This document shows positions 1 to 21,070 of a stretch of DNA of 64,000 nt, one piece after another. The translations under genes and the position numbers were made by a program. Source of the stretch: Malaciobacter pacificus (lineage in GTDB: Bacteria; Campylobacterota; Campylobacteria; Campylobacterales; Arcobacteraceae); contig NZ_CP035928.1 of NCBI RefSeq assembly GCF_004214795.1, forward strand, positions 434,001-498,000, read 5' to 3'. Positions within the stretch are counted from its first letter, which is position 1. Each line of letters begins with the position of its first letter. The notes beneath the pieces were generated by a model. That model made no database searches. It worked only from the letters and a program-made list of their open reading frames with translations, and was not told the origin of the DNA.

Positions 1-441
1 CAAACAGAAGTAAATAGTGCAAAAAATACAATAGATTTTGAAAAAATTTTAAATAAAACAGATTTTACTCCAGCTTATGACTCATTAAAAACAGCAGTTA
101 TGGAATCAAGTTTTGGTGGAATGTTAGGCATGTTTGGAGGTGAAGCGGCACTTGAACCTTTAAAAGAGCCATTTATAAAAAAACTTCAAAAATCTATAAT
201 TGATATTACAAGTAGTGAAGCTTTTAATAAAGTTTTAGATGAGAGTTTAAAATCAGAAGATTTATCAAAAGATGTTCATAGTAAGTTAAGTGAAATTGTA
301 AGTTCAAGATTAGATGAATTAACGCCTAAAATGGTTAAACAAATAGTGCAAGATATGATAAAAGAACATCTTGGATGGCTTGTGATTTGGGGTGCAGTTT
401 TTGGTGGACTTATTGGGTTTGTTTCAACTTTAATAGTGTAG
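1..441 (+). CDS. DUF445-type membrane protein, C-terminal part (partial)
   Basis: The reading frame is open from the first base of the window, so the gene starts outside it. The first in-frame ATG, at 100, is internal. What is visible is a hydrophilic, probably helical stretch followed by a C-terminal membrane segment of about 20 residues with a glycine-rich GAVFGGLIGF core, close to the stop. This ending (amphipathic helices, then a final hydrophobic anchor) fits the DUF445/YheB-type family of inner-membrane proteins, whose function is unknown. The family call rests on the C-terminus alone. The gene ends just before a strong hairpin terminator and faces a convergent operon. Confidence 0.6.
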   Translation, partial: QTEVNSAKNTIDFEKILNKTDFTPAYDSLKTAVMESSFGGMLGMFGGEAALEPLKEPFIKKLQKSIIDITSSEAFNKVLDESLKSEDLSKDVHSKLSEIVSSRLDELTPKMVKQIVQDMIKEHLGWLVIWGAVFGGLIGFVSTLIV

Positions 442-463
442 CTCTTTATTTAGGCTTTATATG

Positions 464-494
464 AAAAATGTAGTATAGTTTTACTACATTTTTT
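464..494. terminator. Bidirectional intrinsic terminator between convergent genes
   Basis: A perfect 12-bp inverted repeat (AAAAATGTAGTA at 464-475 and TACTACATTTTT at 482-493) encloses a 6-base loop and has a T tract on the plus strand and A-rich sequence on the other side. It lies between the DUF445 gene and the convergent methyltransferase operon, so it can end transcription from both directions. Confidence 0.8.
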
Positions 495-540
495 ACTACA
501 AATTAAAAAAAGCCAATAGTTTTTGATAATAGTTGATTGA

Positions 541-2388
541 TTAATGATTTAAATATATATTATTAAAAAATTTATTTAGCTTGTCAATTTCTTTTTCATT
601 TAAAATATACTTTTTTTTCTCTTCTGTTAAGTCAGATATCCCAAAGTTTTTTATATAGTTTTTTCCAAGAGAAAAATAATTAGAAGCATAAGGTTTACTA
701 ATACTTTTTACATACAACCAAAAGATATCAGTTTTAAAAACTTGTTCTAATATTTTTAACTCTTCTTTAGTCTCTGCCATAGCAGCCATACCATTATAAA
801 AATATATATCTTCATTCTCTACAAAACAACTTTTAAACCCTTCTCTTGCCATTTGAGGGAATAGTAGTTTATATTTATATCTTTCTAAAGATTGGTTTCT
901 ACCAAAAGCATACCAATATTTATAATCTTTACCTTTACCTTTATCTCTATTAACTAATGCATCTTTATTAGATAATAAATAGTGGTAAGCAAAGGGATAG
1001 TCATTTATAAACTTATCTTCTGAAATCACATAAATTTGATTTTCTTCATTATACTCATATGGAAAAATAATTTTTTCAATAATATTATTAATTTTATCTG
1101 TTTTAACTAGTAAATTTGAATTAACAATATCTTTACAAATACTTTTTTCAATTTTAGTATTTTTATCTATGTAATAGTATTTTTTAGTATCTTTTATTGG
1201 TTTAAATATGAAAACATTGTTTTTTAATGTTGCTATACCACTTTTAGTGTTATATATTTCTCCAAAAGGAGTACCTACTTTTTCTATTTTATTTACTATA
1301 TTCTTATTTTTTAAATACCATCCTTTAGAAATTGATAAATCTATATATTTGTATTTTTCATAGATAATATTATTCTTTAAGCCTAATCTTTTTAAAGGAG
1401 TATATTTAACTGTCTCCGATTTTATATTTTTTAAAAAACAAATTGAAGTATAAGTCATTCTTGAGTTAAATATTTGCTCATGTTCAAAGTCAATGATTTT
1501 TAAATCAACTTGATTGTCACTGAAATATTTTCTTATTGCTCTACCATTAAGACTTTTTATAAAGGTATTAACTGTTATATATCCAAGTATACCTTTGGGC
1601 TTTAAAAGTTCATATCCAATTTGAAAAAATGGAATATATAGATCAGGGTGCCCTGTTTTACATGTACTCCAATTTTTCATTAGTTCTTTTGTTTCATTAT
1701 TCATATTTCTAGAACACACATAAGGTGGATTCCCTACTATAATATCAAAACCTTTATTTTCTCTAATTTTCTTATTTTCATCTTGCCATTTATATTCAAG
1801 AGAATCACCTACAAATAGGTTGAACTCAAATTCTTTAGTATCTTCACCATACTTTAATGCTAATAAAGATAGAAGGATTTTCGTTCTTTCAATACTATAC
1901 TTCTGAATATCAATACCAAAAATATTATCTCTAAATATACTTTTAAAAGACTTGTTTGTTAACTTTTTAATTTCTAAAGCTGAATCAATTAGAAACCCTC
2001 CACATCCACAAGCTATATCAGCTACTGTTATCTTTTTAGCAGAGTTTTTACTCACCGTTGAAAACACTTCTTCTATTATAAATTCTCTAATATCTTTTGG
2101 AGTATAAATAGCACCATTAACTAACTTATCTGATGGGGAAATTACAAACTCAAAAAATTCAACTAACTCTTCAAAATAATAGTGTTTATTGGATTCTTTA
2201 ATAAGTTCTAAGAACTGTATTAATATTCCATATTCTAATTCATCTTCATTAATTAAAAGGTTTTTAATTAGAAGGTTTTGAATATTTGTTATTTTATGCT
2301 GAATAACAAAAGATGAAACTAATAATCTATTTATAGAATATTCATCTGTTCCATAATCTTTTAGGAACTTACAAACTGACTGATTCAA
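541..2388 (-). CDS. Eco57I/TaqI-like N6-adenine DNA methyltransferase (last gene of defence-like operon)
   Basis: This 615-residue protein carries the SAM-binding motif I DIACGCGGFLI (residues about 124-134) and the catalytic NPPY motif (about 220-223), in the order used by gamma-class N6-adenine methyltransferases. The segment YTPKDIREFIIEEVF before motif I is typical of this group. The C-terminal half (about 350-615) looks like the target-recognition region of Eco57I/TaqI-like enzymes. I see no PD-(D/E)XK nuclease motif, so this is a methylase or part of a larger restriction system. The start is TTG, preceded by a TAGGTAA ribosome site about 9 bases upstream, and no good ATG exists nearby. 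Only 3 bases separate it from the upstream gene. Its joint action with the GHKL ATPase operon is inferred from context. Confidence 0.85.
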   Translation of the reverse strand: MNQSVCKFLKDYGTDEYSINRLLVSSFVIQHKITNIQNLLIKNLLINEDELEYGILIQFLELIKESNKHYYFEELVEFFEFVISPSDKLVNGAIYTPKDIREFIIEEVFSTVSKNSAKKITVADIACGCGGFLIDSALEIKKLTNKSFKSIFRDNIFGIDIQKYSIERTKILLSLLALKYGEDTKEFEFNLFVGDSLEYKWQDENKKIRENKGFDIIVGNPPYVCSRNMNNETKELMKNWSTCKTGHPDLYIPFFQIGYELLKPKGILGYITVNTFIKSLNGRAIRKYFSDNQVDLKIIDFEHEQIFNSRMTYTSICFLKNIKSETVKYTPLKRLGLKNNIIYEKYKYIDLSISKGWYLKNKNIVNKIEKVGTPFGEIYNTKSGIATLKNNVFIFKPIKDTKKYYYIDKNTKIEKSICKDIVNSNLLVKTDKINNIIEKIIFPYEYNEENQIYVISEDKFINDYPFAYHYLLSNKDALVNRDKGKGKDYKYWYAFGRNQSLERYKYKLLFPQMAREGFKSCFVENEDIYFYNGMAAMAETKEELKILEQVFKTDIFWLYVKSISKPYASNYFSLGKNYIKNFGISDLTEEKKKYILNEKEIDKLNKFFNNIYLNH

Positions 2389-2391
2389 ATT

Positions 2392-3129
2392 CTAATTACC
2401 TACCAATTGAGGGTATATATCTTTTGCATTCCAGCTTGAAGTAGTATTTTCTAAATGATTAACTACTGACTTGAAGTATGGTAATATAAAATCCTTTTGA
2501 TATTTAATAAGAATTTTTTTGTATCGCTTAATATTTTTAATTTTATTCCATATTTCAGGAAAAAAGTTTGATAAAATAAAATCTAAAACTAGTATTAATT
2601 CCATAGGATGATGCATAACTCTTGGAGCATCTAAAAACAGTGCTTGTCCAAAGTCTAGATTTGTAGTTTTATTATTCTCATCTTCTGTTAATCTATTCCC
2701 TCCAAATTGAAAGTGATATACTGGATGTGCCTGATGCCCTCCTTGGCTTACATTATGTTTATCAAAATGAACAGCATAGAGAAGTTTACTGCTTGAGTTA
2801 TTTTTATTTTTTCCTTTTATTACAATGTTTAATGAAAACTTTTTAAATGGATCAAGCCCATTTTCTAATCCTTGATTATCTCCTTCTATATCCATATCTA
2901 AAAATAATTCTAAGTTTGAAGCACTCTTTTTGTGTGATATTTTTTTAGGAAACTTACTATCTTTATTAATGTCTATTTTAAAAGGTAATAATGTATATTC
3001 AAAATTATTTACTTGGTTTAATTGATTACTAATTCTGTATAACTGTGATGAGTCAATACCTTCTGTAGTTAAAAGCTCTGCAATTTCTGATAAATCAGAT
3101 GCCATTTGAATAATGTATTCATTATTCAT
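2392..3129 (-). CDS. Unrecognised protein with conserved-looking His motifs (operon gene 3)
   Basis: I do not recognise this family. The ORF can begin at TTG 3144 or at ATG 3129. ATG is preferred because neither start has a clear ribosome site and the gene overlaps the upstream gene's end in either case. The N-terminal 100 residues are variable-looking. The middle holds closely spaced histidines: VHFDKH, then HPVYHFQFGG, then PRVMHHPMEL, followed by a hydrophobic helix ILVLDFILSNFF. The spacing suggests either a metal site or a catalytic fold with several His ligands, but this is speculation. There are no membrane segments or signal peptide. It is translationally coupled to the receiver-domain gene before it and the methyltransferase after it, so it probably acts in the same system. 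Confidence 0.6.
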   Translation of the reverse strand: MNNEYIIQMASDLSEIAELLTTEGIDSSQLYRISNQLNQVNNFEYTLLPFKIDINKDSKFPKKISHKKSASNLELFLDMDIEGDNQGLENGLDPFKKFSLNIVIKGKNKNNSSSKLLYAVHFDKHNVSQGGHQAHPVYHFQFGGNRLTEDENNKTTNLDFGQALFLDAPRVMHHPMELILVLDFILSNFFPEIWNKIKNIKRYKKILIKYQKDFILPYFKSVVNHLENTTSSWNAKDIYPQLVGN

Positions 3130-4204
3130 CGTTATACTTTTCAAGTTTAATATTTAATTTATTTTTATCAGAAGGGTGAACAACTATATTTTTCTTTTTT
3201 ATAACAGGTGATTGTGTTAACCAAGCCTCTAAAGAAATATATTCATATTCTTGCCACTCTTTAGGTTCTGAGCGAGTATATACTTTAAATCCTTCATGTG
3301 GATCAAGAGGTTTTTTTAATGCTTTACAAACAGTCCAGTAATCATAGCTTTCATTTTTTTCTATTAAACTTGGAACATTAAGATTCTTTAGTTTTAGATT
3401 TTCTTTTAAAATATTAACTCTTTCTTCTGCATCTAAGTATGATAAGTATGTTCCAGATATTTCATTAAATATTTTATCAACTTCAAACATCCACCATCTA
3501 TTCCATCCATCATGGAAAACACCTGTATATTTTGCTCTTTCAAATACTTCTTTAATTTTACTCCAGTCATTAGAACTATCTTTATCTATTCCTAATCTAG
3601 CTGCCAAATATTTCTCATTTATTAATATCCCTTTAGCATAAATAAGCTCTTTTAAAATCATTTGGGCATATTCATGGCTAGGAATATTTTCTCCACCCTC
3701 AAAACGTGAAAAGATTCTTGGGTCTAGATTTAATATATTAATATTTAAAAGCTTACTAAAATCTTTTTCTACAATAATCTGTTTATATCCATTTGCTAAA
3801 GAAATTAGTTTAGATTTTGCGTTAGGAGGAGTACTACCTTTAGTTAAGAACCTATCAAAGATGTTATTACTTGTTAAATCTTTGAAATATGTTGCCTTTA
3901 ATTTTAAATCTGTTGAAAATAGTACAATTGGTACATCTTTAACCGTAAGCTTTGAATCAGTAGATAAATCTCTTACATGTTGACCCCAAACTGAACCTGT
4001 AAAATTTGAATTCTTAGAAAACTCATCAGTTCTTAAATCTAAAAGTAATCCATCATAGTTATTTAAATTCTCTATAAAAAAATCTTTTGAATTAATTTCA
4101 TCAACATGTTTATATTCTATTAATAAATTTTCATCTTTTAAACCATCAGTAAATGAATCTACTGTTTCATTACTTTCATCATCAATATATAAATATTTAA
4201 TCAT
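3122..4204 (-). CDS. Receiver-domain protein with unrecognised C-terminal domain (operon gene 2)
   Basis: The first 125 residues form a response-regulator receiver: the acidic pair D8-D9, a phospho-acceptor candidate D56 in LLLDLRTDE, a Ser/Thr in VLFSTD, and the conserved lysine in FLTKG. There is a longer than usual loop after D56. The remaining 235 residues are not a known DNA-binding or enzymatic output domain I can name. They contain a helical segment with KYLAARLGI and aromatic-rich stretches such as DGWNRWWMFEVDK. The start ATG overlaps the stop of the upstream ATPase gene as ATGA, which argues for coupled translation. The receiver is a likely phosphorylation partner of the C-terminal kinase-like module of that ATPase. 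Confidence 0.7.
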   Translation of the reverse strand: MIKYLYIDDESNETVDSFTDGLKDENLLIEYKHVDEINSKDFFIENLNNYDGLLLDLRTDEFSKNSNFTGSVWGQHVRDLSTDSKLTVKDVPIVLFSTDLKLKATYFKDLTSNNIFDRFLTKGSTPPNAKSKLISLANGYKQIIVEKDFSKLLNINILNLDPRIFSRFEGGENIPSHEYAQMILKELIYAKGILINEKYLAARLGIDKDSSNDWSKIKEVFERAKYTGVFHDGWNRWWMFEVDKIFNEISGTYLSYLDAEERVNILKENLKLKNLNVPSLIEKNESYDYWTVCKALKKPLDPHEGFKVYTRSEPKEWQEYEYISLEAWLTQSPVIKKKNIVVHPSDKNKLNIKLEKYNDE

Positions 4205-6456
4205 ATTTTAAATCCTTCTTTATCCCAAGGTAATTCTACTCTAATTGTTGTTGAATAACCTTTTTTAGGTTCTTTTACAAATATTTTACCGCCATAACTA
4301 GTAATAATATCTCTAACAATTTTTAATCCTAGTCCTGTACCAGTCATTTCTTCATGTGTTTTTACAATCTTTCCAACGGGAACACTTGTTGTGTAAAATG
4401 CATTAAAAATTTTTTCTCTATTTTCTAGTTGTATACCATCACCATTATCTGAAAATTCCAAATAGACATTATTGTAAATTTTTCCACACTCTATAAATAT
4501 TTTACCATCTACTTTTGCTCTGTTAATTGCTTTACGAGAATTAGTATAGAAGTTAAATAAAATAGATGCCCATTCTGACTTATGCATTGGAATTGTATAT
4601 AAGTTATATCCATTGAATTTAGGTTCGATGAATTCTATGTTTCTTTTTGATATGTCTGCTTCTAAAGTGGATTGTAAAGCATGAACAACAGTTCTTAGTT
4701 CAATTGATTGTAATTCTTTTTGTACATTTTCAGAAAAAGCTTCATCGAAATATGATACATAAGTTGATAGTCCATCTAAGTGTTTTTTAATTCTTTCATT
4801 AACCTGCAAAGCATGTTCTAAAGAGGAGCTATTTTCAACATTCTTTATATCATGTTGTAGGGCACCTTGGTATTGTTTTATTTCATGAATAAACTCTCCA
4901 ATAGTTAAACCTAAAGCAGCTAGGATTCTTAAAAGGTTCATTTCCTTTATAAATTCTTTTTTCTGTTCTTTTTGTTCTTTTTGTGCATTTTCAAGATCTT
5001 GCGCTAATTCTATCAATTTATTTTGATTAATTGTTGGTTCTTTTTTTTGACTTTCGACAGAGGTATCAATTATTTCTTTTAATTCAATAATTGCATCATC
5101 AATTATTTCTTCTGGTTCTTTTTGCCAATCTTTATCATTTGTTCGTGTTTTCACACCTCTTTCTGCACCAATTTTAGTTACTGCATCTGTAAGTATCATA
5201 TACCCAAAATCAGTTAATTCTTCAAATGCTTCATTATCTAACAAGCCTTCCCTACTTGATGTCTCTTCAAATTGTTCACCATAATCGTTATTAACTTCTA
5301 TAAAACCAAAAAAATTTATATTACCGTGAACTGGAAGAACTGTTCTTCTTGCAATAGACTGATCTAACCCTAACCAATCATCATCTGATTCACCATAAGG
5401 TAAAACTCTAAAACCATTTCTATATAATCTTATTGCACCTTGCGTTTTGGCTTTTTCTCTAATTACTGTCTCAATTTGCTTTGGAATTAGTCCCTTGTTG
5501 TAAATAAAATAATATGCTTTTAGAGAAACATTCCTTAACACTTCAAATGGAGTTTCTTCGTTTAAACAAAAAGTCCTCTCTCTATATCCAAGCTTTGAAC
5601 TTTTTAATGTTAAATACATATATCCTTCATTATCAACTTTACCAGTAATCTCAGCTAAAGCATGTTTAAAAAACATGTTTTTTTCGTCAGCAATAATTGT
5701 TTTTTTGTTATTCTCTTGACTAATACATTTAAGTTTAAATCCTGGATCATCATTCTTTAAATCTTTTTTAGTTTTAGAAAGAGGAAAAGGCTGTAATACT
5801 TCAGAAGCATATCTATATACTCTTTGAATTTGTGCTTTAGTCCAGTTATCTCTTAACTGCTCTATAATTAATGTTGTACCTTCTTCTTTAGTCTTTTCAG
5901 TATATGAAATTTCATTAGTAATAGATAATAAGTCGAGATCACCAAGGAAGTTATCCCACTTAATAGTCACCTTTAATGCTTTATGAGAATCTTTTGTTTG
6001 TGTAATAATAGTTAGTTTCTTACCTAGTCTTTGAGCAGAAAAACGTCCAATACCTTTTTTCCCTGCTCGTTTTCTATTATATCGTGTAGACATGGGAAAG
6101 TGTAACTTTTCACTTGAAGATAGTCTCATAAAACCGTTAACTAACTGTTCTTTAGTCATACCTAACCCATTATCATCTATTTCTAAAGTACCTCCACCTA
6201 AAGAAGAGTCTTTAAATACAATATTAACATGGGTTGCATCTGCGTCATAGGCATTTTTTACTAATTCAGATACTGCTGTTTCATGTCTTGCAACAAGTTC
6301 CATTCCTAAACGGTTAATTATTCCTGCATCGACAGAAAATCTAACATTTTTTTCATCAAATTTCGATAGGCTATTGGATAATTCTAAAATTTTAGAATAG
6401 TTGTTAGGCTCATTTTTTAGAACTTCTTCTAGTTCTTTTCTTATTTTCTCTGGCAT
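4201..6456 (-). CDS. Double GHKL ATPase: N-terminal MORC/Hsp90-like module plus C-terminal histidine-kinase-like module
   Basis: This 751-residue protein contains two complete Bergerat-fold nucleotide sites. The N-terminal one has ELVKNAYDAD (about 64-73), DDNGLGM (94-100) and GKKGIGRF (132-139), as in Hsp90, MutL and MORC-like ATPases, followed by an S5-like region. A Glu/Lys/Gln-rich coiled coil (about 460-505) leads to a kinase-like half: IGEFIHEIKQ with candidate phospho-His H524, an N box FNFYTNSRKAI (about 634-644), DNGDGI (670-675) and GTGLGLKIV (706-714). Bacterial MORC relatives (paraMORCs) are known from restriction-modification neighbourhoods. Coupling to an active-looking kinase core and a separate receiver is the unusual part. 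The start is ATG with AGGAAT upstream. It is the first gene of the operon. Confidence 0.8.
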   Translation of the reverse strand: MPEKIRKELEEVLKNEPNNYSKILELSNSLSKFDEKNVRFSVDAGIINRLGMELVARHETAVSELVKNAYDADATHVNIVFKDSSLGGGTLEIDDNGLGMTKEQLVNGFMRLSSSEKLHFPMSTRYNRKRAGKKGIGRFSAQRLGKKLTIITQTKDSHKALKVTIKWDNFLGDLDLLSITNEISYTEKTKEEGTTLIIEQLRDNWTKAQIQRVYRYASEVLQPFPLSKTKKDLKNDDPGFKLKCISQENNKKTIIADEKNMFFKHALAEITGKVDNEGYMYLTLKSSKLGYRERTFCLNEETPFEVLRNVSLKAYYFIYNKGLIPKQIETVIREKAKTQGAIRLYRNGFRVLPYGESDDDWLGLDQSIARRTVLPVHGNINFFGFIEVNNDYGEQFEETSSREGLLDNEAFEELTDFGYMILTDAVTKIGAERGVKTRTNDKDWQKEPEEIIDDAIIELKEIIDTSVESQKKEPTINQNKLIELAQDLENAQKEQKEQKKEFIKEMNLLRILAALGLTIGEFIHEIKQYQGALQHDIKNVENSSSLEHALQVNERIKKHLDGLSTYVSYFDEAFSENVQKELQSIELRTVVHALQSTLEADISKRNIEFIEPKFNGYNLYTIPMHKSEWASILFNFYTNSRKAINRAKVDGKIFIECGKIYNNVYLEFSDNGDGIQLENREKIFNAFYTTSVPVGKIVKTHEEMTGTGLGLKIVRDIITSYGGKIFVKEPKKGYSTTIRVELPWDKEGFKI

Positions 6457-6740
6457 TAATATTCCTATAAAATATATGAAATGTATTTTATCTTATTTTA
6501 TATTTGATAATATAAAATCAATCATAAGAATTTATTAATTCTATTGTAATAATAAATATTTATATAAAAGTATTTGATTTTTAATAATAGTAATATTATA
6601 GACTTATAGTAAATTTTCATTTTGTATATAGTTTAAAAAATTGTCTACACTATCGGGGTCATTCCATTTCTTTATTGTCAAATAGATCTTCTAGCTGTTC
6701 AGTATATTCTCGAGTTAACATATCAGAATCTTTTTGATAT
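6457..6740. other. AT-rich intergenic stretch upstream of the defence-like operon
   Basis: This 284-base stretch is extremely AT-rich. It must contain the promoter of the four-gene minus-strand operon, but I cannot choose a single -35/-10 pair with confidence. Its right third carries the short coding-like remnant described separately. Confidence 0.5.
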
Positions 6741-6757
6741 TTAATATGTAAATCCAA
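6659..6757 (-). pseudogene. Short coding-like remnant or 20-32 codon ORF between operon and ATPase gene
   Basis: In one minus-strand frame, 6757 to the TGA at 6659-6661 reads as a hydrophilic, coding-like peptide containing LTREYTEQLEDLF. A TTG at 6755-6757 or an ATG at 6719-6721 could start it. The frame overlaps the 3' end of the ATPase gene in another register. It may be the tail of a gene lost when the adjacent island inserted. It is too short for a firm call. Confidence 0.3.
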
Positions 6758-7946
6758 ATAGCCAAAGAGGTAATTTATTTTTAAATCCAACTTCTATACT
6801 ATCCGCAACTACATAAGAGTTTTTAATACCTTTTATTTGTTCAAAACTTTTATTTTTGCCACCAATTTCAAAAGTATATTTTTCATCTACTAAGAAATCA
6901 CCTTTATCAACATAGTATATAGAACTATTAACACTAACTTGTGAAGCGAAGAAACTTTCTCTTAAAGTTCCTATTTTTGGTTCTAAACAAAGCGATGATA
7001 ACAGTGTTGTATTAGATAAATAAAGTTTATCAGGTTTTTGCATTGATTTAAATCGTTTGCCTTCAAATACAATATGTCTTAATAATTCTGCTTTATGAAG
7101 TAGTTCTATGTATTTGTATAGAGTAACTTTTGATAATCCAACTTTTTGTGCTAGGCTTTCAATACTAAGTTCAAGAGGATTTGACACACAAATACTTGTT
7201 AAAAGCTTTTTTAATGTACTTATTTTATCCCCTGAAATATTGTGAATTGAACCTAAATCAGTATGAAGAATAGTGTTAATTGTATCTAATACCATTTGTG
7301 TGTAACTATCTTTATTTTCAAAATAGAATGGATAAGCCCCAATCCTTAAATACTGCTCAAAGTGTTTTAAAATTTTTTCATTATCTAGCTTTTTAATAAT
7401 GTCATTTGCGATATCAACATGGTCTTTTAATACATGTTCCAATTTGTAAGAATCAAAGTTTTTATTTAACTTTAGTTCCAAAAATTCTTTAAACGATAAT
7501 ATTGGTAAATGATACATCCCGTATCTTCTTGTAAAACTAGGGTTTGTTAATTTGATTGTACTTGAACCTGAAAATAGAACTTTTACTTCTAAAAAATCAT
7601 ATATACTTTTTAGTTCTTGCTCAAAATCATTAGCTTCATGAACTTCATCTATCAAAATACATTTACCACCATAATTAACAAATTCTTGAACCAATTCAAA
7701 AAGAGATACACCTGCTAAATGTGGATGATCACATGAAATGTAAAGTACTTCATCACTTTTATATTCTAAAGCTTGTGCAACTTGAAGCAATAATGTTGTC
7801 TTACCTACACCCCTAGAGCCATAAACACCACTAAACTTTGATTCACTAGCTAATAATCTATCGTATAAAAAACGATGGTATTTGATAGTACTGTTTTGTA
7901 CTTTTTTGTTAGATAGTTCAAATAAGTTGTTTAGTAGACTTTTCAT
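6741..7946 (-). CDS. DUF4143-type AAA+ ATPase
   Basis: This 401-residue protein has a Walker A motif GSRGVGKTT (about 43-51), a Walker B ILIDEVHE (about 96-103) and a sensor-1-like FSGSS. A winged-helix segment (ELSIESLAQKVGLSKVTLY) lies in the C-terminal third, and the protein ends in the family-typical WLFGF. This architecture is that of the widespread AAA_14/DUF4143 ATPases, whose cellular role is unclear. They are common in accessory regions. The ATG start has AAAGGATAAT directly upstream. It is transcribed in the same direction as the methyltransferase operon but is separated from it by about 280 bases, so co-transcription is uncertain. Confidence 0.8.
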   Translation of the reverse strand: MKSLLNNLFELSNKKVQNSTIKYHRFLYDRLLASESKFSGVYGSRGVGKTTLLLQVAQALEYKSDEVLYISCDHPHLAGVSLFELVQEFVNYGGKCILIDEVHEANDFEQELKSIYDFLEVKVLFSGSSTIKLTNPSFTRRYGMYHLPILSFKEFLELKLNKNFDSYKLEHVLKDHVDIANDIIKKLDNEKILKHFEQYLRIGAYPFYFENKDSYTQMVLDTINTILHTDLGSIHNISGDKISTLKKLLTSICVSNPLELSIESLAQKVGLSKVTLYKYIELLHKAELLRHIVFEGKRFKSMQKPDKLYLSNTTLLSSLCLEPKIGTLRESFFASQVSVNSSIYYVDKGDFLVDEKYTFEIGGKNKSFEQIKGIKNSYVVADSIEVGFKNKLPLWLFGFTY

Positions 7947-8114
7947 TATTATCCTTTAGTAGTAAAGTTAATTAAACGATTATATCATTTTTTAGTTGAA
8001 ATATATAATCTATGTTAATAAAATACATATTTATATGTTTAATTAGGTAATCTTTGTATTTCATCAATTATGATTTAAAATATTTATTTAATCTTAAATT
8101 TGGTAGTGTATCTT

Positions 8115-8360
8115 ATGTATAAAGTAATAGTAAATAATCAATGTAATTGTTTTAAAAAAAGTGAGTTAGAAGTACATAGTGAATTTGAAAATGAAGAAGA
8201 TGCACTTAATTTCGCACTAAAAATGAATAAAATTATGAATAATGAGTTTTGTAAAAAACATTCATTTCAAGTCTTAAAAGTTTTTGATACATTTAGTATC
8301 TCTTTAGTTAAACCATTGGAAAAAGCACTTAAGTGTTGTGGTAGTGGTTGTTGTAAATAA
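8115..8360 (+). CDS. Small cysteine-rich protein with CCGSGCC tail
   Basis: This is an 81-residue protein of unknown function. Cysteines lie near the N-terminus (QCNC), in the middle (EFCKKH) and in the C-terminal CCGSGCC. Such a cluster suggests metal binding or redox chemistry, which is inference. A longer version from TTG 8100 is possible, but ATG 8115 is preferred. It has no signal peptide or membrane segment, so it should be cytoplasmic. It sits 10 bases before the ChaN-like lipoprotein gene and is probably co-transcribed with it, which would fit a role in metal or haem handling. Confidence 0.65.
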   Translation: MYKVIVNNQCNCFKKSELEVHSEFENEEDALNFALKMNKIMNNEFCKKHSFQVLKVFDTFSISLVKPLEKALKCCGSGCCK

Positions 8361-8370
8361 AAGAGGATAG

Positions 8371-9270
8371 ATGATAAAAATTATATTAACTTTAATTATA
8401 ACAATTTTTCTTTTTTCTGCTTGTAGCCAAAAGAAGTCAACACTATCTTTTACTCATGATTTAGAAAAAAAAGAGGGTATTTATTCTTTAAAACAAGCAA
8501 AATATATCTCTATTGAGGAATTAGTTAAGGAAATAGAACACTATCCTATAATTTTTGTTGGAGATCATCATAATACTAAAAAGACCCATGATTTTTTTGA
8601 AAGTTTATTAATAGAACTTGATAAAAAGAACTACAAACTACATTTAGCTAATGAGTGGTTTTCTCCAAGCCATGATAAGTTATTAGAGAATTATACTAAT
8701 GATGTTTTTGACTCACAAGAATTAAAAAATAGAAGAAAATGGGAAAAGTTTACAAGTTTTAAATGGGAATATGTAGAACCATTGTATGAAATTGTTAAAA
8801 AAAATAATGGAAAGCTTTATGGTATAAACTTATCAAAAGAAGATAGAAAAAAAATATCATTAAAGAGTTTTGATAAGATGAATAATGAGGAAAAGATATT
8901 TTATGATAGTTTAGATTTAAATGTAAGTGTTCATAGAAATTTTGTGATGCCTTATTTATCTCATTGTTCAAAAATACCACAAAAGACAGATGAAAAATGT
9001 GAAGAAAGAATGTATAGAGTTCAAGTATCTTGGGATACTTACATGGCACAAAATGTAGCTAAAATTTCTAAATTTTCATTAAAATCACCAAAAGATAAAC
9101 TTATAGTTTTTGCAGGTGCTATGCATATTGAACATGATTTAGGGATACCTTTGAGATTCTCAAGGTTTAGTAATCTTCCATTTTTTACAATATCAAATGA
9201 AAAAATTTTAAAAGAAAAAGATATAAAAGTAAAAGCTAGTAAAGCAGATGTGATCTATATTTATGAGTGA
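8371..9270 (+). CDS. ChaN-family haem-binding-type lipoprotein
   Basis: The N-terminus is a lipoprotein signal with lipobox FSAC (Cys about 18), so the mature protein should be lipid-anchored in the envelope. The body matches the ChaN/DUF399 family: FVGDHHNTKKTHDFF near residue 65, EWFSPS near residue 98, and AGAMHIEHDLGIPLRF near the C-terminus. ChaN (Cj0177 in Campylobacter) binds haem and belongs to iron-uptake regulons. The ATG start has AGAGGA upstream. The gene follows the Cys-rich gene closely, and the two probably form an operon. I saw no convincing Fur box. Confidence 0.8.
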   Translation: MIKIILTLIITIFLFSACSQKKSTLSFTHDLEKKEGIYSLKQAKYISIEELVKEIEHYPIIFVGDHHNTKKTHDFFESLLIELDKKNYKLHLANEWFSPSHDKLLENYTNDVFDSQELKNRRKWEKFTSFKWEYVEPLYEIVKKNNGKLYGINLSKEDRKKISLKSFDKMNNEEKIFYDSLDLNVSVHRNFVMPYLSHCSKIPQKTDEKCEERMYRVQVSWDTYMAQNVAKISKFSLKSPKDKLIVFAGAMHIEHDLGIPLRFSRFSNLPFFTISNEKILKEKDIKVKASKADVIYIYE

Positions 9271-9358
9271 TTTCTTAAATATCATATTAATGCTAATTTA
9301 AATACAATGTTGTTTAAAAAATCATATATTAATTTTCTAATAATTATAAAGGAATAAT

Positions 9359-9673
9359 GTGGCAGTTGAAGAAATAGAAGTATTAGTTTTACTTGATGTA
9401 GGCGGACTTCAAGATGAAGAAAAATTACAAAAGTTTTTAAAAAGAAAGAGTTTTAAAGAAGTTGAAGGAGAGAAGCATGTTTATACATCTAGTTCTACAA
9501 CAACTTTAGTTACTACAAAAGCTTTTATTTTAGAAATTTTCAAAGAGGCTTTACAAAAAGCAGGGTTTGAAAATGCAAATTTAGTATTTTTGCTAAATGA
9601 AACACCTTATCCTCCATATTATTATGACAAGGAAACAGGATTCTTTGAAGAAGTAAAAGAAGAAGCTAAATAG
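9359..9673 (+). CDS. Conserved hypothetical protein upstream of mfd
   Basis: This 104-residue protein starts at GTG 9359, with AAAGGA five bases upstream. The overlapping ATG at 9357 hits a stop after six codons and is rejected. The sequence is acidic and mixed alpha/beta in character, with no motif, signal peptide or membrane segment I recognise. Its stop codon shares one base with the GTG start of mfd, which indicates co-translation and perhaps a link to repair or transcription. No function is assigned. Confidence 0.75.
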   Translation: MAVEEIEVLVLLDVGGLQDEEKLQKFLKRKSFKEVEGEKHVYTSSSTTTLVTTKAFILEIFKEALQKAGFENANLVFLLNETPYPPYYYDKETGFFEEVKEEAK

Positions 9674-12660
9674 TGAAAAATATTTTTGAGTATTTAAAAA
9701 ATTTAAAAGCAGATAAAAGACTAAAAGAGTGTCAACTTTTAATTGTAAATGATGACATTCAAGCTCAAATGGCTAGTGATGTAGTCTCTTTTTTAGGATT
9801 TAAACCATTTGTTTTAAGTGATTTTAGGGCAAATTTTGGTGATGATTTATTATCATTTAGTGAAGAATTACAAGAGATTACAAAATCCTTAAATAGCTAC
9901 TATAACTATAAAAAACAAGACAAAATCTTAATCTCACCAATTAGAACTATCTCTTTTCCTTTACCAAAAGAAAAATGTTTTGATAGCTTTGAAATAAATT
10001 TTGCAGATACAATAAATTTAGAAGAGTTCAAATCAAAACTTTACAATTGGGGATACTACTTTGTAGATATTGTTACAAGTGAGGGAGAAGCTTCTATTAG
10101 GGGAGATATTATTGATATTTGCCCACTTGGAAGTGAGTTTGGTTATAGAGTTTCATTATTTGATGATGAAGTTGAAAGTATTAGAAAATTTGATATTGAA
10201 GATCAAAAATCTTTTAAAGAAGAGATTGAAGGGTTTTCTATTTCTCCAGCTTTTCTTGCTCTAGATGAAGCTACATTTGAGCAAATAAATGAACAAATAG
10301 AAACAGTTCAAACTGATGCATTTATTAAAGATATTCACTCACTTGGATTTTGGTATCTAAATGATTTAGGTGAGTATTTACCTCAAAATTTAAGCTCATA
10401 TATCACAAAAGAAGCCCTTGATGAGCTTGAAGAAGTTTATGTATTTGAAGAAAAAAGAATAGACAAAGATAAGTTTTTAACTATTCCTCAAATAATTCAA
10501 AGTAGAAACTACCAAGAAGTAGCCCCAGCTAATATCAAAGAGTTTTTAACTTTCCATTCTGGTAAAAAAGTTACTATTATCTCTAGTAGCGAAGCAAAAG
10601 TTAAAGGCTTTAATTTAGACTTAAATGATAAAGATATTAACTACTTATTTGATAATCAAATCATAAATCTTGTTTCAAACTCTGAAGTAATACTTTCACT
10701 AAATAAAGAGATTAAAAAAAGAAGAAAGAAAAAAGTAAAACTAGTTTTAGATGAACTTCAACTAAACGACTTTGTAGTACATGAGAAGCATGGTATTGGT
10801 CAGTATAAAGGTATTGAACCAGTAACAGTTATGGGAGCTAAAAGAGACTTCGTAATTGTTATGTACGCAGGGGATGATAAGCTTTTAATTCCTGTTGAAA
10901 ATATCGATTTAATTGATAGATATGTAGCTGATGGAAGCTCTTATGCGGTTGTTGATAAGCTTGGTAAAGGAAGCTTTGCTAAGTTAAAAGAGAAAGTAAA
11001 AGATAGATTGTTTGCTATTGCAAATGATATTATTAAAATGGCAGCAGCTAGAGAGTTAGTAAATGGTATAAAAATCAATACAAATAAAAAGACACTTGAA
11101 GATTTTGCTAAAAGTTCAGGCTTTGAATATACAAAAGATCAAAAAAGAAGTGTGCGAGAAATCTTTGATGATTTAAGTAGTGGTAGAGTTATGGACAGAC
11201 TTCTTTCAGGTGATGTTGGTTTTGGAAAAACAGAAGTTGCTATGAATGCAATGTTAGCTGTTGTATTAGATGGTCATCAAACACTTTTTGTATGTCCTAC
11301 TACGCTTCTTGCTTCTCAGCACTTCCAAGGTATTAAAAAAAGATTTGATGAGTTTGGAATAAGAGTTGCTAAACTTGATGGAAAATCAACAACTAAAGAG
11401 AAAAATGAAGTTAAAAAAGCACTTGAAAGTGGAGATATCCAAGTGGTTATTGGAACTCACTCACTTTTAAGTGTTAAAACAAAAGATTTAGCACTTGTTA
11501 TAATTGACGAAGAACATAAGTTTGGTGTAAAACAAAAAGAGAAATTAAAACAATTAAGAGAAGATGTGCATATTTTCTCAATGAGTGCAACTCCAATTCC
11601 AAGAACTCTAAATCTAGCCTTATCAAAACTAAAAGGTATGAGTGCTTTACTAACACCTCCAAGTGAGAGATTAGGGGTTAGAACTTATGTAAAAGAGTAT
11701 AGTGATAAGTTAATTAAAGAGATTATTTTAAGAGAGAAAAGAAGAGGTGGACAGCTTTTTTATGTGCATAATAACATCGCTTCAATTGAAGCTAAAAAAG
11801 CAGATATTCAAGAGATTGTTCCAAATATCAAAATAGAGATTATCCACTCAAAAGTAAAACCAGCAGATGCTGAAAAACTAATTGAAGCCTTTGAAAACAA
11901 AGAGTTTGATATCTTACTTGCAACATCTATTGTTGAATCTGGACTTCACTTACCAAATGCAAACTCAATTATCATCGATGGTGCTGATAGATTTGGTATT
12001 GCAGATTTACACCAATTAAGAGGTAGAGTTGGAAGAAGTAATAAAGAAGGTTTTTGTTACTACGTTGTTGAAGATAAAAAACAAATCACTGATGATGCAA
12101 TCAAAAGACTAGTTGCCCTAGAGTCTAACTCATATTTAGGAAGTGGTACAGCTTTAGCTCACCAAGATTTAGAAATCAGAGGTGGTGGAAATATTATCGG
12201 TGAAGCACAAAGTGGGCATATTAAACAAATTGGATATGGTTTATATCTAAAAATGTTAGAAGATGCACTTGCCTCTTTAAGTGGCGAAACAAAAGAAGAG
12301 AAAAAATCAGTTGATATTAAACTAGCAATTTCTGCATATATTAGTGATGAGTATATCAGTGAAGATAGAGTTAGACTTGAATTATATAGACGTCTTAGTA
12401 AAGCTCATGATAATCAAGAGGTATATGCAATTGAAGAAGAAATGGAAGATAGATTTGGTAAACCAGATATTCCAACTAAACAGTTTATTGAATTAATTTT
12501 AATTAAAATTTTAGCACTTAGTAAAGGTATTCAAACAATTAGTTCATATGAGATGAATATTACTTTTGTAAAAGGTGATGATACAAAAGAGACTATAAAA
12601 TCTCCAAGCAAAGATGATGACGATATTATTGCAACTACAATGAAGTATTTAAGAAGTTAG
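9673..12660 (+). CDS. mfd: Transcription-repair coupling factor Mfd
   Basis: Mfd is a DNA translocase that removes RNA polymerase stalled at lesions and recruits UvrA. At 995 residues it is shorter than the E. coli enzyme, as expected in Campylobacterota. Visible landmarks are the N-terminal UvrB-like domain, the polymerase-interacting segment starting NDFVVHEKHGIGQYKGIE (about 365), the helicase Walker A GDVGFGKTEVA (about 512), the DEEHKFG box (about 611), SMSATPIPRTL, and the C-terminal helicase motifs SIVESGLHLPNAN and QLRGRVGRS. The TRCF domain follows. The start is GTG, overlapping the previous stop by one base. The call is secure. Confidence 0.97.
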   Translation: MKNIFEYLKNLKADKRLKECQLLIVNDDIQAQMASDVVSFLGFKPFVLSDFRANFGDDLLSFSEELQEITKSLNSYYNYKKQDKILISPIRTISFPLPKEKCFDSFEINFADTINLEEFKSKLYNWGYYFVDIVTSEGEASIRGDIIDICPLGSEFGYRVSLFDDEVESIRKFDIEDQKSFKEEIEGFSISPAFLALDEATFEQINEQIETVQTDAFIKDIHSLGFWYLNDLGEYLPQNLSSYITKEALDELEEVYVFEEKRIDKDKFLTIPQIIQSRNYQEVAPANIKEFLTFHSGKKVTIISSSEAKVKGFNLDLNDKDINYLFDNQIINLVSNSEVILSLNKEIKKRRKKKVKLVLDELQLNDFVVHEKHGIGQYKGIEPVTVMGAKRDFVIVMYAGDDKLLIPVENIDLIDRYVADGSSYAVVDKLGKGSFAKLKEKVKDRLFAIANDIIKMAAARELVNGIKINTNKKTLEDFAKSSGFEYTKDQKRSVREIFDDLSSGRVMDRLLSGDVGFGKTEVAMNAMLAVVLDGHQTLFVCPTTLLASQHFQGIKKRFDEFGIRVAKLDGKSTTKEKNEVKKALESGDIQVVIGTHSLLSVKTKDLALVIIDEEHKFGVKQKEKLKQLREDVHIFSMSATPIPRTLNLALSKLKGMSALLTPPSERLGVRTYVKEYSDKLIKEIILREKRRGGQLFYVHNNIASIEAKKADIQEIVPNIKIEIIHSKVKPADAEKLIEAFENKEFDILLATSIVESGLHLPNANSIIIDGADRFGIADLHQLRGRVGRSNKEGFCYYVVEDKKQITDDAIKRLVALESNSYLGSGTALAHQDLEIRGGGNIIGEAQSGHIKQIGYGLYLKMLEDALASLSGETKEEKKSVDIKLAISAYISDEYISEDRVRLELYRRLSKAHDNQEVYAIEEEMEDRFGKPDIPTKQFIELILIKILALSKGIQTISSYEMNITFVKGDDTKETIKSPSKDDDDIIATTMKYLRS

Positions 12661-19740: not shown

Positions 19741-21070
19741 CGTAATTTAAGCTGATTTAAATTTTAAAAAGTTGAATCAAACTTCAGATAAGTTATAATT
19801 TTTTACTACAAAAATTTAACAGAAGAGCGATTCAACTTATGGAAATTATTCTACCAAAAATATCTTCAAGTCTATCTAAAATGTGGACTAAGGTTTTAAA
19901 TCTTGAAAATTCACTTTTTCCTTCTTTGAAAAGAGAGCTTCAATTAGAAGAGTTGTCAAATAAAGAGCAAAAGCTTATTAAGATATTAGACTTTGCTGCG
20001 ATTGAAAAAAATATCACTGTCGTATCTATTACAAACACTCCAAAGCATAGAGAAGAGATTGCACGAGCATTTATTGCAAAGAGTGTTTACAATATCCAAA
20101 CAACCAGAGACCTTATCGATAGACTTCATAGTGATAGAACGCTGAGGATCTTGTGTGGGTGGAGATATAAAAACGATATTCCAAGTGAGTCTAAATTTAG
20201 TAGAGTCTTTAAGGAGCTCAGTGAGCTTAAAATTGCACAAAAGACGCATGAGCAGTTTGTGAAGGAGTATCTAAGGGATACACTCTTTTTTTATAATGCA
20301 AGTGATGCAACAAAAATACCACTGAGAGAAAAACCTGTAAAAGTAGAAAAAGAAAAGTTTAAACCAAAAAGAAGAGGACGACCTAAAAAAGGTGAAACAA
20401 GAGAGCCTAAAACACCCAGTATCTTGCAGCAACAAGAAGATATGAAAACCACAAAGCAGATGCTATCTTTGGTATCAACGCAGTGTGGAGTTGGAAGAAA
20501 ACAGAATTCCAAAGGCAACTTTGAAACATGGATAGGAGGGAAACTCCATATCAGTGTAGTAGATGGAGATATCCCTATTACTGCTATTTATTCAGGGGCA
20601 AATGTTCATGATAGCTCAGTAGCACTTCCTCTTATAAACGAGACAAGCAAAAAAGTATCATATCTTTATGACTTACAAGATGCAGGATACGACAGCAATA
20701 TTATCAGAGATTTTTCCAAAAAACTAAATCATAGACCGCTTATTGATATCAATCCGAAGAACTCCAAAGAGTTAAAAGGAAAAATTCAACTTATAAAAGA
20801 TGAAAAAAAGAAATTTAAAATTCTAAACCTTACTCAAAGTTTAGATACCCATCACTATAACCAAAGAAGTATGGTTGAGCGTGTAAATAAATACCTCAAA
20901 GAAGACTTTGGATGCAGTAATATTTATTATAAAGGAGCTACAAAAGTAGCTTCTGTTTTAGCATTTGGTATTTTATCAGTTTGTATTCATCAGAGTTTGA
21001 AACTGGTAACATAACTTTTAGCTAAAAACACTAAAAATTAGCCATTTTTAAAACTCAACCATCAAGCACG
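19741..21070 (+). mobile_element. Insertion sequence, IS4/IS5 superfamily, about 1.33 kb (ends approximate)
   Basis: The element carries one transposase gene. The probable ends are an imperfect inverted repeat. The left end reads CGTAATTTAAGCTGATTT from 19741, and the right end read on the other strand is CGTGCTTGATGGTTGAGTTT from 21070. No clean target duplication was found (CAACC on the left against CACCC on the right), so the ends could be off by several bases. It interrupts a receiver-kinase gene. Confidence 0.7.
19839..21014 (+). CDS. DDE transposase of the insertion sequence
   Basis: This 391-residue transposase has an N-terminal helical DNA-binding region, a basic linker (KFKPKRRGRPKKGE), and a catalytic core with candidate acidic residues in SVVDGDIP, LQDAGYDSN and RSMVERVNKYLK. 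This pattern fits the IS4/IS5 superfamily. I cannot place it in a group with certainty. The frame is intact, so the element may still be mobile. Its G+C content and codon use are slightly higher than those of the surrounding genes, consistent with recent arrival. Confidence 0.85.
   Translation: MEIILPKISSSLSKMWTKVLNLENSLFPSLKRELQLEELSNKEQKLIKILDFAAIEKNITVVSITNTPKHREEIARAFIAKSVYNIQTTRDLIDRLHSDRTLRILCGWRYKNDIPSESKFSRVFKELSELKIAQKTHEQFVKEYLRDTLFFYNASDATKIPLREKPVKVEKEKFKPKRRGRPKKGETREPKTPSILQQQEDMKTTKQMLSLVSTQCGVGRKQNSKGNFETWIGGKLHISVVDGDIPITAIYSGANVHDSSVALPLINETSKKVSYLYDLQDAGYDSNIIRDFSKKLNHRPLIDINPKNSKELKGKIQLIKDEKKKFKILNLTQSLDTHHYNQRSMVERVNKYLKEDFGCSNIYYKGATKVASVLAFGILSVCIHQSLKLVT

Follow-up and report, generated by a model that had tools for sequence, protein, structure and literature searches.

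A four-gene operon of a histidine kinase, a receiver protein, a histidine-rich protein and an N6-adenine methyltransferase in Malaciobacter pacificus: a possible phosphorelay-run restriction-like cassette

Introduction

What might a phosphorelay do beside a DNA methyltransferase? This question is raised by four closely packed genes on the minus strand of the Malaciobacter pacificus chromosome, at 541–6456 of the 64,000-nucleotide stretch of DNA analyzed here (the window). Restriction-modification is usually portrayed as always active, with methylation as its only control. If a His-Asp phosphorelay stood between recognition and attack, restriction would gain a switchable gate. We examined the gene structure, the conservation and the relatives of this operon.

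Organization and conservation of the operon

The operon and its surroundings are composed of the following features.

4201–6456, minus strand: HK, double-GHKL histidine kinase, 751 aa
3122–4204, minus strand: REC, receiver protein, 360 aa
2392–3129 (mechanical ORF 2392–3144), minus strand: P2, His-rich protein, candidate effector
541–2388, minus strand: MTase, N6-adenine DNA methyltransferase, 615 aa, TTG start
442–9358, no strand: variable chromosomal slot containing the operon, with flanks compared in relatives G002 and G036

All four open reading frames were found where the initial annotation had placed them, in the order HK, REC, P2 and MTase. HK and REC share a 4-base ATGA overlap, REC and P2 overlap by 8 bases, and P2 and MTase are separated by a 3-base gap. 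The P2 start used here is the ATG at 3129, which was selected by its fit to the homologues, while the mechanical ORF opens at 3144. The TTG start of MTase is also seen in locus L016.

The initial annotation had regarded these genes as one unit and had proposed examining whether the four families recur together in other genomes, in the absence of which its claim of novelty would fall. They do recur together: the same gene order was found at ten loci, on genomes or plasmids, in the phyla Campylobacterota and Bacteroidota, and thus the claim does not fall on this ground. A distant and rearranged version (MTase, HK, REC and P2, in this order) is carried by a Paraburkholderia plasmid. Among 389 Campylobacterota genomes, P2 occurs in four, which are exactly the four with REC; such a coincidence would be expected at about 1 in 10^9 by independent draws, with the reservation that the four include one closely related pair. 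A weak REC match in G002 (E 9e-4) was rejected, as it sits in an unrelated 484-aa ORF. In the genomes searched, P2 was present only alongside this operon. The pairwise distances of the four proteins are also correlated across nine loci (r 0.76–0.94). No relative of REC or P2 was found in the viral contigs or phage records scanned.

Two features of the surroundings are relevant to mobility. One is that the slot is variable: in G002 it is empty, with the flanking genes 413 bp apart, and in G036 the same flanking genes surround different cargo. A tRNA scan and a repeat scan gave no clear attachment site there. Another is the company that the operon keeps elsewhere: Piwi and MTase genes (L006), type III-like restriction-modification genes (L018), a IIG-like restriction-modification gene with toxin-antitoxin-like genes (L016), and an integrase or recombinase (L014 and L039). 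From these sequence comparisons, the four-gene block looks like a unit that moves horizontally between distantly related bacteria, and its context suggests a role in defence. In the window itself, no known defence genes lie directly beside the operon, except an AAA_14/DUF4143 ATPase gene upstream (6741–7946), which matches a PADLOC candidate family. We rejected this ATPase as a possible fifth component, since it is missing from the compared loci that have the same four genes.

The kinase

Two GHKL domains were identified in HK by Pfam, HATPase_c_3 (1.2e-22) and HATPase_c (1.4e-25), and the following elements are discussed below.

5824–6342, minus strand: N-terminal MutL/paraMORC-like GHKL ATPase, aa 39–211 (E64, N68, D95, G97, GKKGIG)
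4216–4944, minus strand: DHp and second GHKL kinase core, aa 505–747 (N635, DNGDG, F box, GTGLGL)
4885–4887, minus strand: His524, H-box histidine (FIHEIK)

The motifs of the N-terminal ATPase are invariant in eight relatives and in remote ones. The kinase core with an H box around His524, which had been proposed earlier, is borne out by the comparison: the His-Glu pair is invariant in the eight operon relatives and in the remote HKs, the residues of the N, G1, F and G2 boxes (N635, D670NG, F box, GTGLGL) are invariant among the relatives, and the C-terminal DHp and CA region matches the solved sensor kinase ZraS in a profile search (E 4.5e-19). HK thus has the H-box histidine and all four boxes of a two-component kinase.

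According to Iyer et al. (2008; PMC2292703), the GHKL-S5 modules of MutL and topoisomerases work as DNA clamps powered by ATP. This raises a nuclease-free possibility resembling BREX or a clamp, in which the GHKL ATPase would load on unmodified DNA and block replication, while the HK core would be a second ATPase motor that needs no phosphotransfer. The failure to recognize a nuclease in the operon agrees with it. However, the H-box His and the receiver Asp, kept in all aligned relatives, would be superfluous for a pure motor; moreover, the BREX PglX models score far under their cut-off (44 against 500 bits) and no further BREX gene is present in the operon. We consider this explanation improbable.

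The receiver protein

REC consists of two parts, as listed here.

3770–4204, minus strand: receiver domain, aa 1–145 (D8, D9, D56, S/T97, K122), with (beta-alpha)5 order in the model
4037–4039, minus strand: Asp56, predicted phosphoacceptor
3125–3757, minus strand: C-terminal output domain (W234, R236, W237, W238, E313, W317)

The five receiver positions D8, D9, D56, S/T97 and K122 are conserved among the REC relatives. Asp56 is invariant in ten receivers and is kept even in the Paraburkholderia receiver, which is only 18% identical. The model matches solved receivers in both Foldseek and VIA-align, with a Z of about 12 on the DALI scale. With this fold, the acidic pair, the Asp, the Thr/Ser and the Lys, REC is a receiver by the usual marks of two-component proteins, and it was rightly described as intact. 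The output domain matches no Pfam family over the cut-off, while its six listed residues are conserved in all relatives. Two matches were not accepted as homology: one of a single REC member to LmuA (9e-4) and one of the receiver protein to ABC-3C CTD6 (0.011).

The methyltransferase and the third gene

MTase matches Eco57I/N6_Mtase in Pfam (3.8e-34) and MTase_II in PADLOC (4e-94 over aa 30–598), which places it in the type II family. Judging from these matches, it is an N6-adenine methyltransferase of an Eco57I/type II gamma-like class. Its catalytic motif is invariant in eight relatives, and no N-terminal nuclease was recognized in it.

1720–1731, minus strand: NPPY catalytic motif of MTase, aa 220–223
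2620–2769, minus strand: conserved core of P2, H126-x-D128-x-H130...H140-P-x-x-H144-x-Q146...D172-x-x-R175, numbered from 3144

As stated in the initial annotation, the operon has no recognizable nuclease gene; in Pfam and PADLOC, no cognate restriction endonuclease was found, and P2 is a candidate for this role. The His/Asp/Arg core of P2 does not vary among ten relatives, the most distant of which is 18% identical. On the other hand, neither sequence nor fold comparison linked P2 to a nuclease, and its model gave nothing with E < 0.001 against PDB and BFVD (Foldseek); the best VIA-align Z was 5.6, from a beta-sheet only. P2 may still have a known fold, because the confidence of the model is middling (pLDDT 66.5). 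P2 has a weak similarity to the Pfam family DUF2290, at E 0.033 and 14 bits against a cut-off of 25. Based on the conserved residues, P2 is probably a metal-dependent enzyme, and most likely a nuclease, although this activity is a guess from gene position and conserved residues, because homology and fold comparisons gave no nuclease.

The gene position is informative when remote HK relatives are considered. Their MTase operons contain a receiver-like gene followed by a further enzyme gene, which is HNH in Deinococcus, Bacteroides and Salipiger, an MBL-fold hydrolase in Hymenobacter volaticus, Burkholderia aenigmatica and Pseudanabaena, and Vsr in B. glumae. P2 occupies this very position in the window operon. 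The HK-REC-HNH or HK-REC-MBL plasmid sets (those of Deinococcus, Bacteroides, Salipiger, H. volaticus and B. aenigmatica) share with it the HK architecture, the adjacent receiver-like gene and an N6 methyltransferase; they differ in their short receivers (about 210–230 aa) and in having a recognizable nuclease or hydrolase instead of P2.

These data bear on an epigenetic switch, in which the phosphorelay would control the transcription or activity of MTase through a DNA-binding REC output domain, with P2 as an accessory subunit. Most receiver proteins regulate transcription, the conserved REC output domain is of no known family and could bind DNA, and no nuclease was recognized; all of these suit a switch. 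Nevertheless, Pfam found no known DNA-binding domain in REC, the relatives have HNH, MBL or Vsr enzymes in the P2 slot, and the patchy distribution and mobile contexts suit defence better. The switch therefore appears unlikely.

If P2 is instead a toxin, the operon may act by abortive infection: the phosphorylated receiver would activate P2 against RNA, nucleotides or tRNA and stop the host, and the methylated chromosome would only set the threshold. The His/Asp core would fit many metal enzymes, and a DUF2290 protein belongs to a T7-inhibiting helicase system (PMC9122126), though the likeness of P2 to it is weak. However, no match to a toxin family was found, and the fixed linkage to a DNA methyltransferase suggests direct discrimination of DNA. 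This possibility is given a low probability.

Possible function of the operon

In the reading that we prefer, the operon is a restriction-like defence cassette that spreads horizontally, is complete in itself and is controlled by a phosphorelay inside the cell; we judge the chances of this reading to be about even. It is preferred because the gene order recurs, P2 is tied to REC, the kinase boxes, the receiver residues and the P2 core are conserved, the receiver fold is supported, HNH, MBL or Vsr enzymes fill the P2 slot in relatives, the neighbours elsewhere are defence-related or mobile, and the slot can be empty at 413 bp. On the contrary side, two-component systems usually control transcription, the REC output domain could bind DNA, P2 resembles no nuclease in sequence or fold, and the genes beside the operon in the window are, apart from the AAA_14/DUF4143 ATPase, not known for defence. 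In the cassette, MTase would mark self DNA at its target sequences. HK is soluble, and its N-terminal ATPase, which resembles MutL and MORC, would sense a trigger; we infer that this is most likely DNA that enters the cell or lacks modification, or a DNA state that a phage produces. The second GHKL domain would then phosphorylate His524, and the phosphate would pass to Asp56 of REC. The C-terminal domain of REC may in turn release or activate P2, the putative effector, which would attack the invader or the cell.

The relatives also offer a series of naturally exchanged effectors on a common signalling core, and the logic can thus be tested by single-residue mutants (H524, D56 and the P2 core). 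A wider proposal, which we put forward tentatively and hold to be rather doubtful, is a class of phosphorylation-gated restriction with a fixed core of kinase and receiver, a self-marking methyltransferase and a plug-in slot for HNH, MBL hydrolase, Vsr or P2, in which P2 would found a new family of metal-dependent nucleases.

Comparison with known systems

The initial annotation knew of no described precedent. This stands for the four-gene composition (divergent receiver protein, N6 methyltransferase and P2), for which PADLOC, Pfam and the searchable literature gave no counterpart, but not for the signalling part. Bellieny-Rabelo et al. (2021; PMC8011034) reported HEF_HK/Response_reg_2 as two-component-like elements beside restriction-modification genes; HEF_HK combines a paraMORC-like HATPase_c_3, a histidine-kinase-like region and HATPase_c, and lies beside a receiver-like protein. 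HK is distantly homologous to these proteins over its full length (hhalign probability 99.9, E 1.3e-33), and both systems share a soluble kinase of HATPase_c_3, DHp (or DHp-like) and HATPase_c, a receiver-like neighbour and restriction-modification genes. The window HK nonetheless does not match the HEF_HK family PF19191, the best of eight relatives reached E 0.11, and the Paraburkholderia HK reached E 0.0079 (17.1 bits against a cut-off of 24.1). The receivers differ further: no PF19192 (Response_reg_2) match was found in the organism's own genome or in eight REC relatives, and the HEF_HK partner and REC gave no confident alignment beyond the first motifs (profile comparison probability 4.7). 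HEF_HK systems mostly have a C5 methyltransferase and often Vsr or HNH, whereas this operon has an N6 methyltransferase and P2, with no C5 methyltransferase or Vsr among its ORFs and domains. Thus, two-component-like kinases beside restriction-modification genes are already known, and the set of divergent receiver, N6 methyltransferase and P2 appears to be new.

The paraMORC/GHKL ATPases of restriction-modification systems (Iyer et al. 2008), including the GHKL-Shedu protein VcSduA (PMC12137116), likewise have an N-terminal GHKL domain in methyltransferase operons. The C-terminus of HK differs from theirs in being a histidine-kinase core rather than a nuclease or TIR, and the receiver gene is separate; the Shedu nuclease domain DUF4263 is absent from the Pfam matches of HK and P2. 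The GHKL segment of HK (aa 39–211) also matches the N-terminus of the BbrUII/HgiDII restriction enzymes (NF050001) with E 3.9e-24, at 85 bits and thus below the model cut-off of 550, and their remainder is replaced in HK by DHp and the kinase domain. Detocs is composed of a sensor kinase with a TPR region, a phosphate-buffer receiver and a PNP-type effector. Pfam found neither a PNP domain in the operon nor TPR in HK. Rousset et al. (2022; PMC9122126) described the T7-inhibiting pair of a helicase and a DUF2290 protein; P2 is perhaps remotely DUF2290-like, with a similarity below the cut-off, and no helicase partner is present in the operon or its relatives. The DefensePredictor paper (PMC13092281) shows in a figure a predicted system that combines HATPase and REC.

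A related set of kinase, response regulator and cytosine methyltransferase is carried by a Campylobacter conjugative plasmid. Over 40 plasmids of this kind have the kinase, which means that systems of this general class are no rarity.

Operon structure and conservation as a unit

The operon, carried by a genome of 2.66 Mb, has the following structure.

6456-541, minus strand: four-gene operon, transcribed in the order HK > REC > P2 > MTase
HK, 751 aa: double-GHKL histidine kinase
REC, 360 aa: receiver protein
P2, 245-250 aa: His-rich protein
MTase, 615 aa: Eco57I-type N6-adenine DNA methyltransferase

HK overlaps REC by 4 bases, REC overlaps P2 by 8 bases, and a 3-base gap separates P2 from MTase. 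The mechanically called P2 ORF opens with TTG; an ATG at 3129, overlapping the REC stop codon, agrees better with the homologues.

The initial annotation had proposed checking whether the four families recur together elsewhere, and they were found in the same order in further loci of Campylobacterota (Sulfurimonas, Campylobacter concisus) and Bacteroidota. Besides the window genome, this order is seen in G357 (L012), G282 (L014), G475 (L039), a Sulfurimonas MAG (L016), Hymenobacter lapidarius (L018), a Hymenobacter plasmid (L006), Bacteroidetes 43-16 (L019), Algoriphagus terrigena (L020) and C. concisus (L013/L017), where MTase runs off the contig. No constant fifth gene accompanies these loci. 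The P2 profile matched 4 of 389 Campylobacterota genomes, the very four that also bear REC, and in each of six records from the three-gene search the operon copy is the sole P2 copy; REC is present in 2 of 295 genomes of the sampled Bacteroidota class. The pairwise distances at nine loci are correlated for all six gene pairs (r 0.76-0.94), values reached by 0 or 1 of 5000 label shuffles. The four genes are thus almost certainly a conserved unit (this and the later degrees of confidence, for the HK-REC pair, the anti-invader role and the P2 effector, are our judgements). Their rare, patchy spread over two phyla and the plasmid copy imply that they move horizontally as a block.

Kinase, receiver and methyltransferase

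HK carries HATPase_c_3 at aa 59-167 (1.2e-22) and HATPase_c at aa 631-743 (1.4e-25; both Pfam). The ATP-site motifs of the first GHKL module (E64, N68, D95, G97, GKKGIG) are conserved in 8 of 8 operon relatives. The N-termini of the BbrUII/HgiDII restriction enzymes resemble HK aa 39-211 (E 3.9e-24), but at 85 bits the match falls short of the cut-off (550). The kinase-like core with an H box at about His524, noticed in the initial annotation, was borne out: the C-terminal half matches solved sensor kinases over their DHp+CA core (ZraS, E 4.5e-19), and among the eight operon relatives the HE pair at His524 is invariant and the N, G1, F and G2 boxes are complete. These motifs persist at about 25% identity in relatives from Deinococcus, Enterobacter, Campylobacter, Rhizobium and Pseudanabaena.

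Neither REC nor its relatives matched any Pfam family above the cut-off. The AlphaFold2 model, built from six sequences, has the (beta-alpha)5 order, and the solved structures that it matches best are receivers (VIA-align Z about 12 across 115-135 residues). With D8, D9, D56, S/T97 and K122 at the canonical positions, the intact receiver with Asp56 claimed earlier is upheld. A conserved domain outside known families makes up the C-terminal 200 residues, where model confidence is low. HK and REC very probably work as a pair.

MTase matches the Eco57I/N6 family (Pfam, 3.8e-34) and, almost end to end, a PADLOC type II MTase; its NPPY is invariant among relatives, and its nearest solved relatives are adenine-specific MTases. 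No nuclease was recognised in its first 80 residues.

P2 and the gene following the receiver

P2 gave nothing above the cut-off in Pfam, PADLOC or NCBIfam; the closest family, DUF2290, lies under the cut-off (E 0.033). A Paraburkholderia plasmid P2, 18% identical to the window P2, shares with the others the motif H126-x-D128-x(1,2)-H130 ... H140-P-x-x-H144-x-Q146 ... D172-x-x-R175. Its residues fall mostly on or beside adjacent strands of the predicted sheet, and this arrangement is suggestive of a metal or active site. The slot after the receiver was compared using HK relatives on plasmids.

Gene orders around HK relatives
N6 MTase-HK-receiver-HNH: Deinococcus
HK-receiver-HNH-N6 MTase: Bacteroides finegoldii; Salipiger
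MTase-HK-receiver-MBL hydrolase: Hymenobacter volaticus; Burkholderia aenigmatica
HK-receiver-MBL: Pseudanabaena
HK-hypothetical-Vsr-C5 MTase: Burkholderia glumae
HK-response regulator-C5 MTase: Campylobacter jejuni conjugative plasmid, L047 (NZ_CP044170.1) 5995-10460; related double-GHKL kinase
MTase-HK-REC-P2: Paraburkholderia (Betaproteobacteria), L058 (NZ_AP023177.1) 4569-9972; distant version

Some middle genes have no annotation beyond 'hypothetical'; six show the receiver motif in their sequence, and for four the Response_reg matches (Pfam) are weak and under the cut-off. Wherever the gene following the receiver can be recognised, it encodes a nuclease or hydrolase, and P2 holds that place in the window operon. 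Mainly for this reason P2 is proposed as a candidate effector, at about even chances.

The L058 receiver has no clear K122 counterpart in the alignment. Homologues of the L047 kinase occur in more than 40 Campylobacter plasmid records, and a haloarchaeal plasmid (L060, NZ_CP044130.1, 6953-10334) has a related histidine kinase and an adjacent response regulator near an N-6 DNA methylase.

Relation to published systems and possible role

A soluble kinase-like protein of the architecture HATPase_c_3 + HEF_HK + HATPase_c was described by Bellieny-Rabelo, Pretorius and Moleleki (2021; PMC8011034), who related it to paraMORC ATPases. It lies beside a receiver-like Response_reg_2 protein in restriction-modification (R-M) neighbourhoods, where the MTases are mostly of the C5 type and Vsr or HNH is often present. 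In several Bacteroidota Response_reg_2 loci, a C5-MTase is accompanied by an HK of about 1000 aa, a receiver protein of about 550 aa and a gene resembling Vsr. The window HK aligns end to end with the HKs of such loci (probability 99.9, E 1.3e-33), whereas REC does not align with their receiver proteins (probability 4.7). HEF_HK (PF19191) gave no match above the cut-off, and Response_reg_2 (PF19192) none in the window organism's genome. The class of GHKL-HK, receiver and MTase is already published, as a prediction, and the earlier claim of no precedent stands only for the branch with REC, P2 and an N6 MTase. Searches of PADLOC 2023, Pfam, NCBIfam and a set of open-access papers did not turn up this branch.

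An anti-invader role is likely. In such a system, the N-terminal GHKL clamp of HK would act as the sensor, His524 would relay to Asp56, the REC C-terminal domain would act on P2, and m6A would provide self-marking.

Chromosomal slot and neighbourhood

The genes flanking the operon are only 413 bp apart in the relative G002, and the same slot holds other genes in G036, indicating that the operon is cargo of a variable locus. Elsewhere, the neighbours of the operon are Piwi and MTase genes in L006, type III-like R-M genes in L018, a IIG-like R-M gene together with toxin-antitoxin-like genes in L016, an integrase-like gene in L014 and a recombinase in L039; the identities at the last four loci come from reading translated ORFs, not from profile matches.

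The variable slot spans window 441-9359, from the gene ending at 441 to the ORF before an mfd-like gene, and is rearranged in G094. Directly upstream of the operon (6741-7946) lies an AAA_14/DUF4143 ATPase that matches the PADLOC candidate family PDC-S01 (2e-28) and is not an operon member in other genomes. Immediately upstream of the window (L010, 11647-19670), the genome carries a tandem pair of paralogous, lipoprotein-like ORFs about 1250-1340 aa long, and an ORF at window 19839-21014 resembles, by eye only, an IS5-type transposase.
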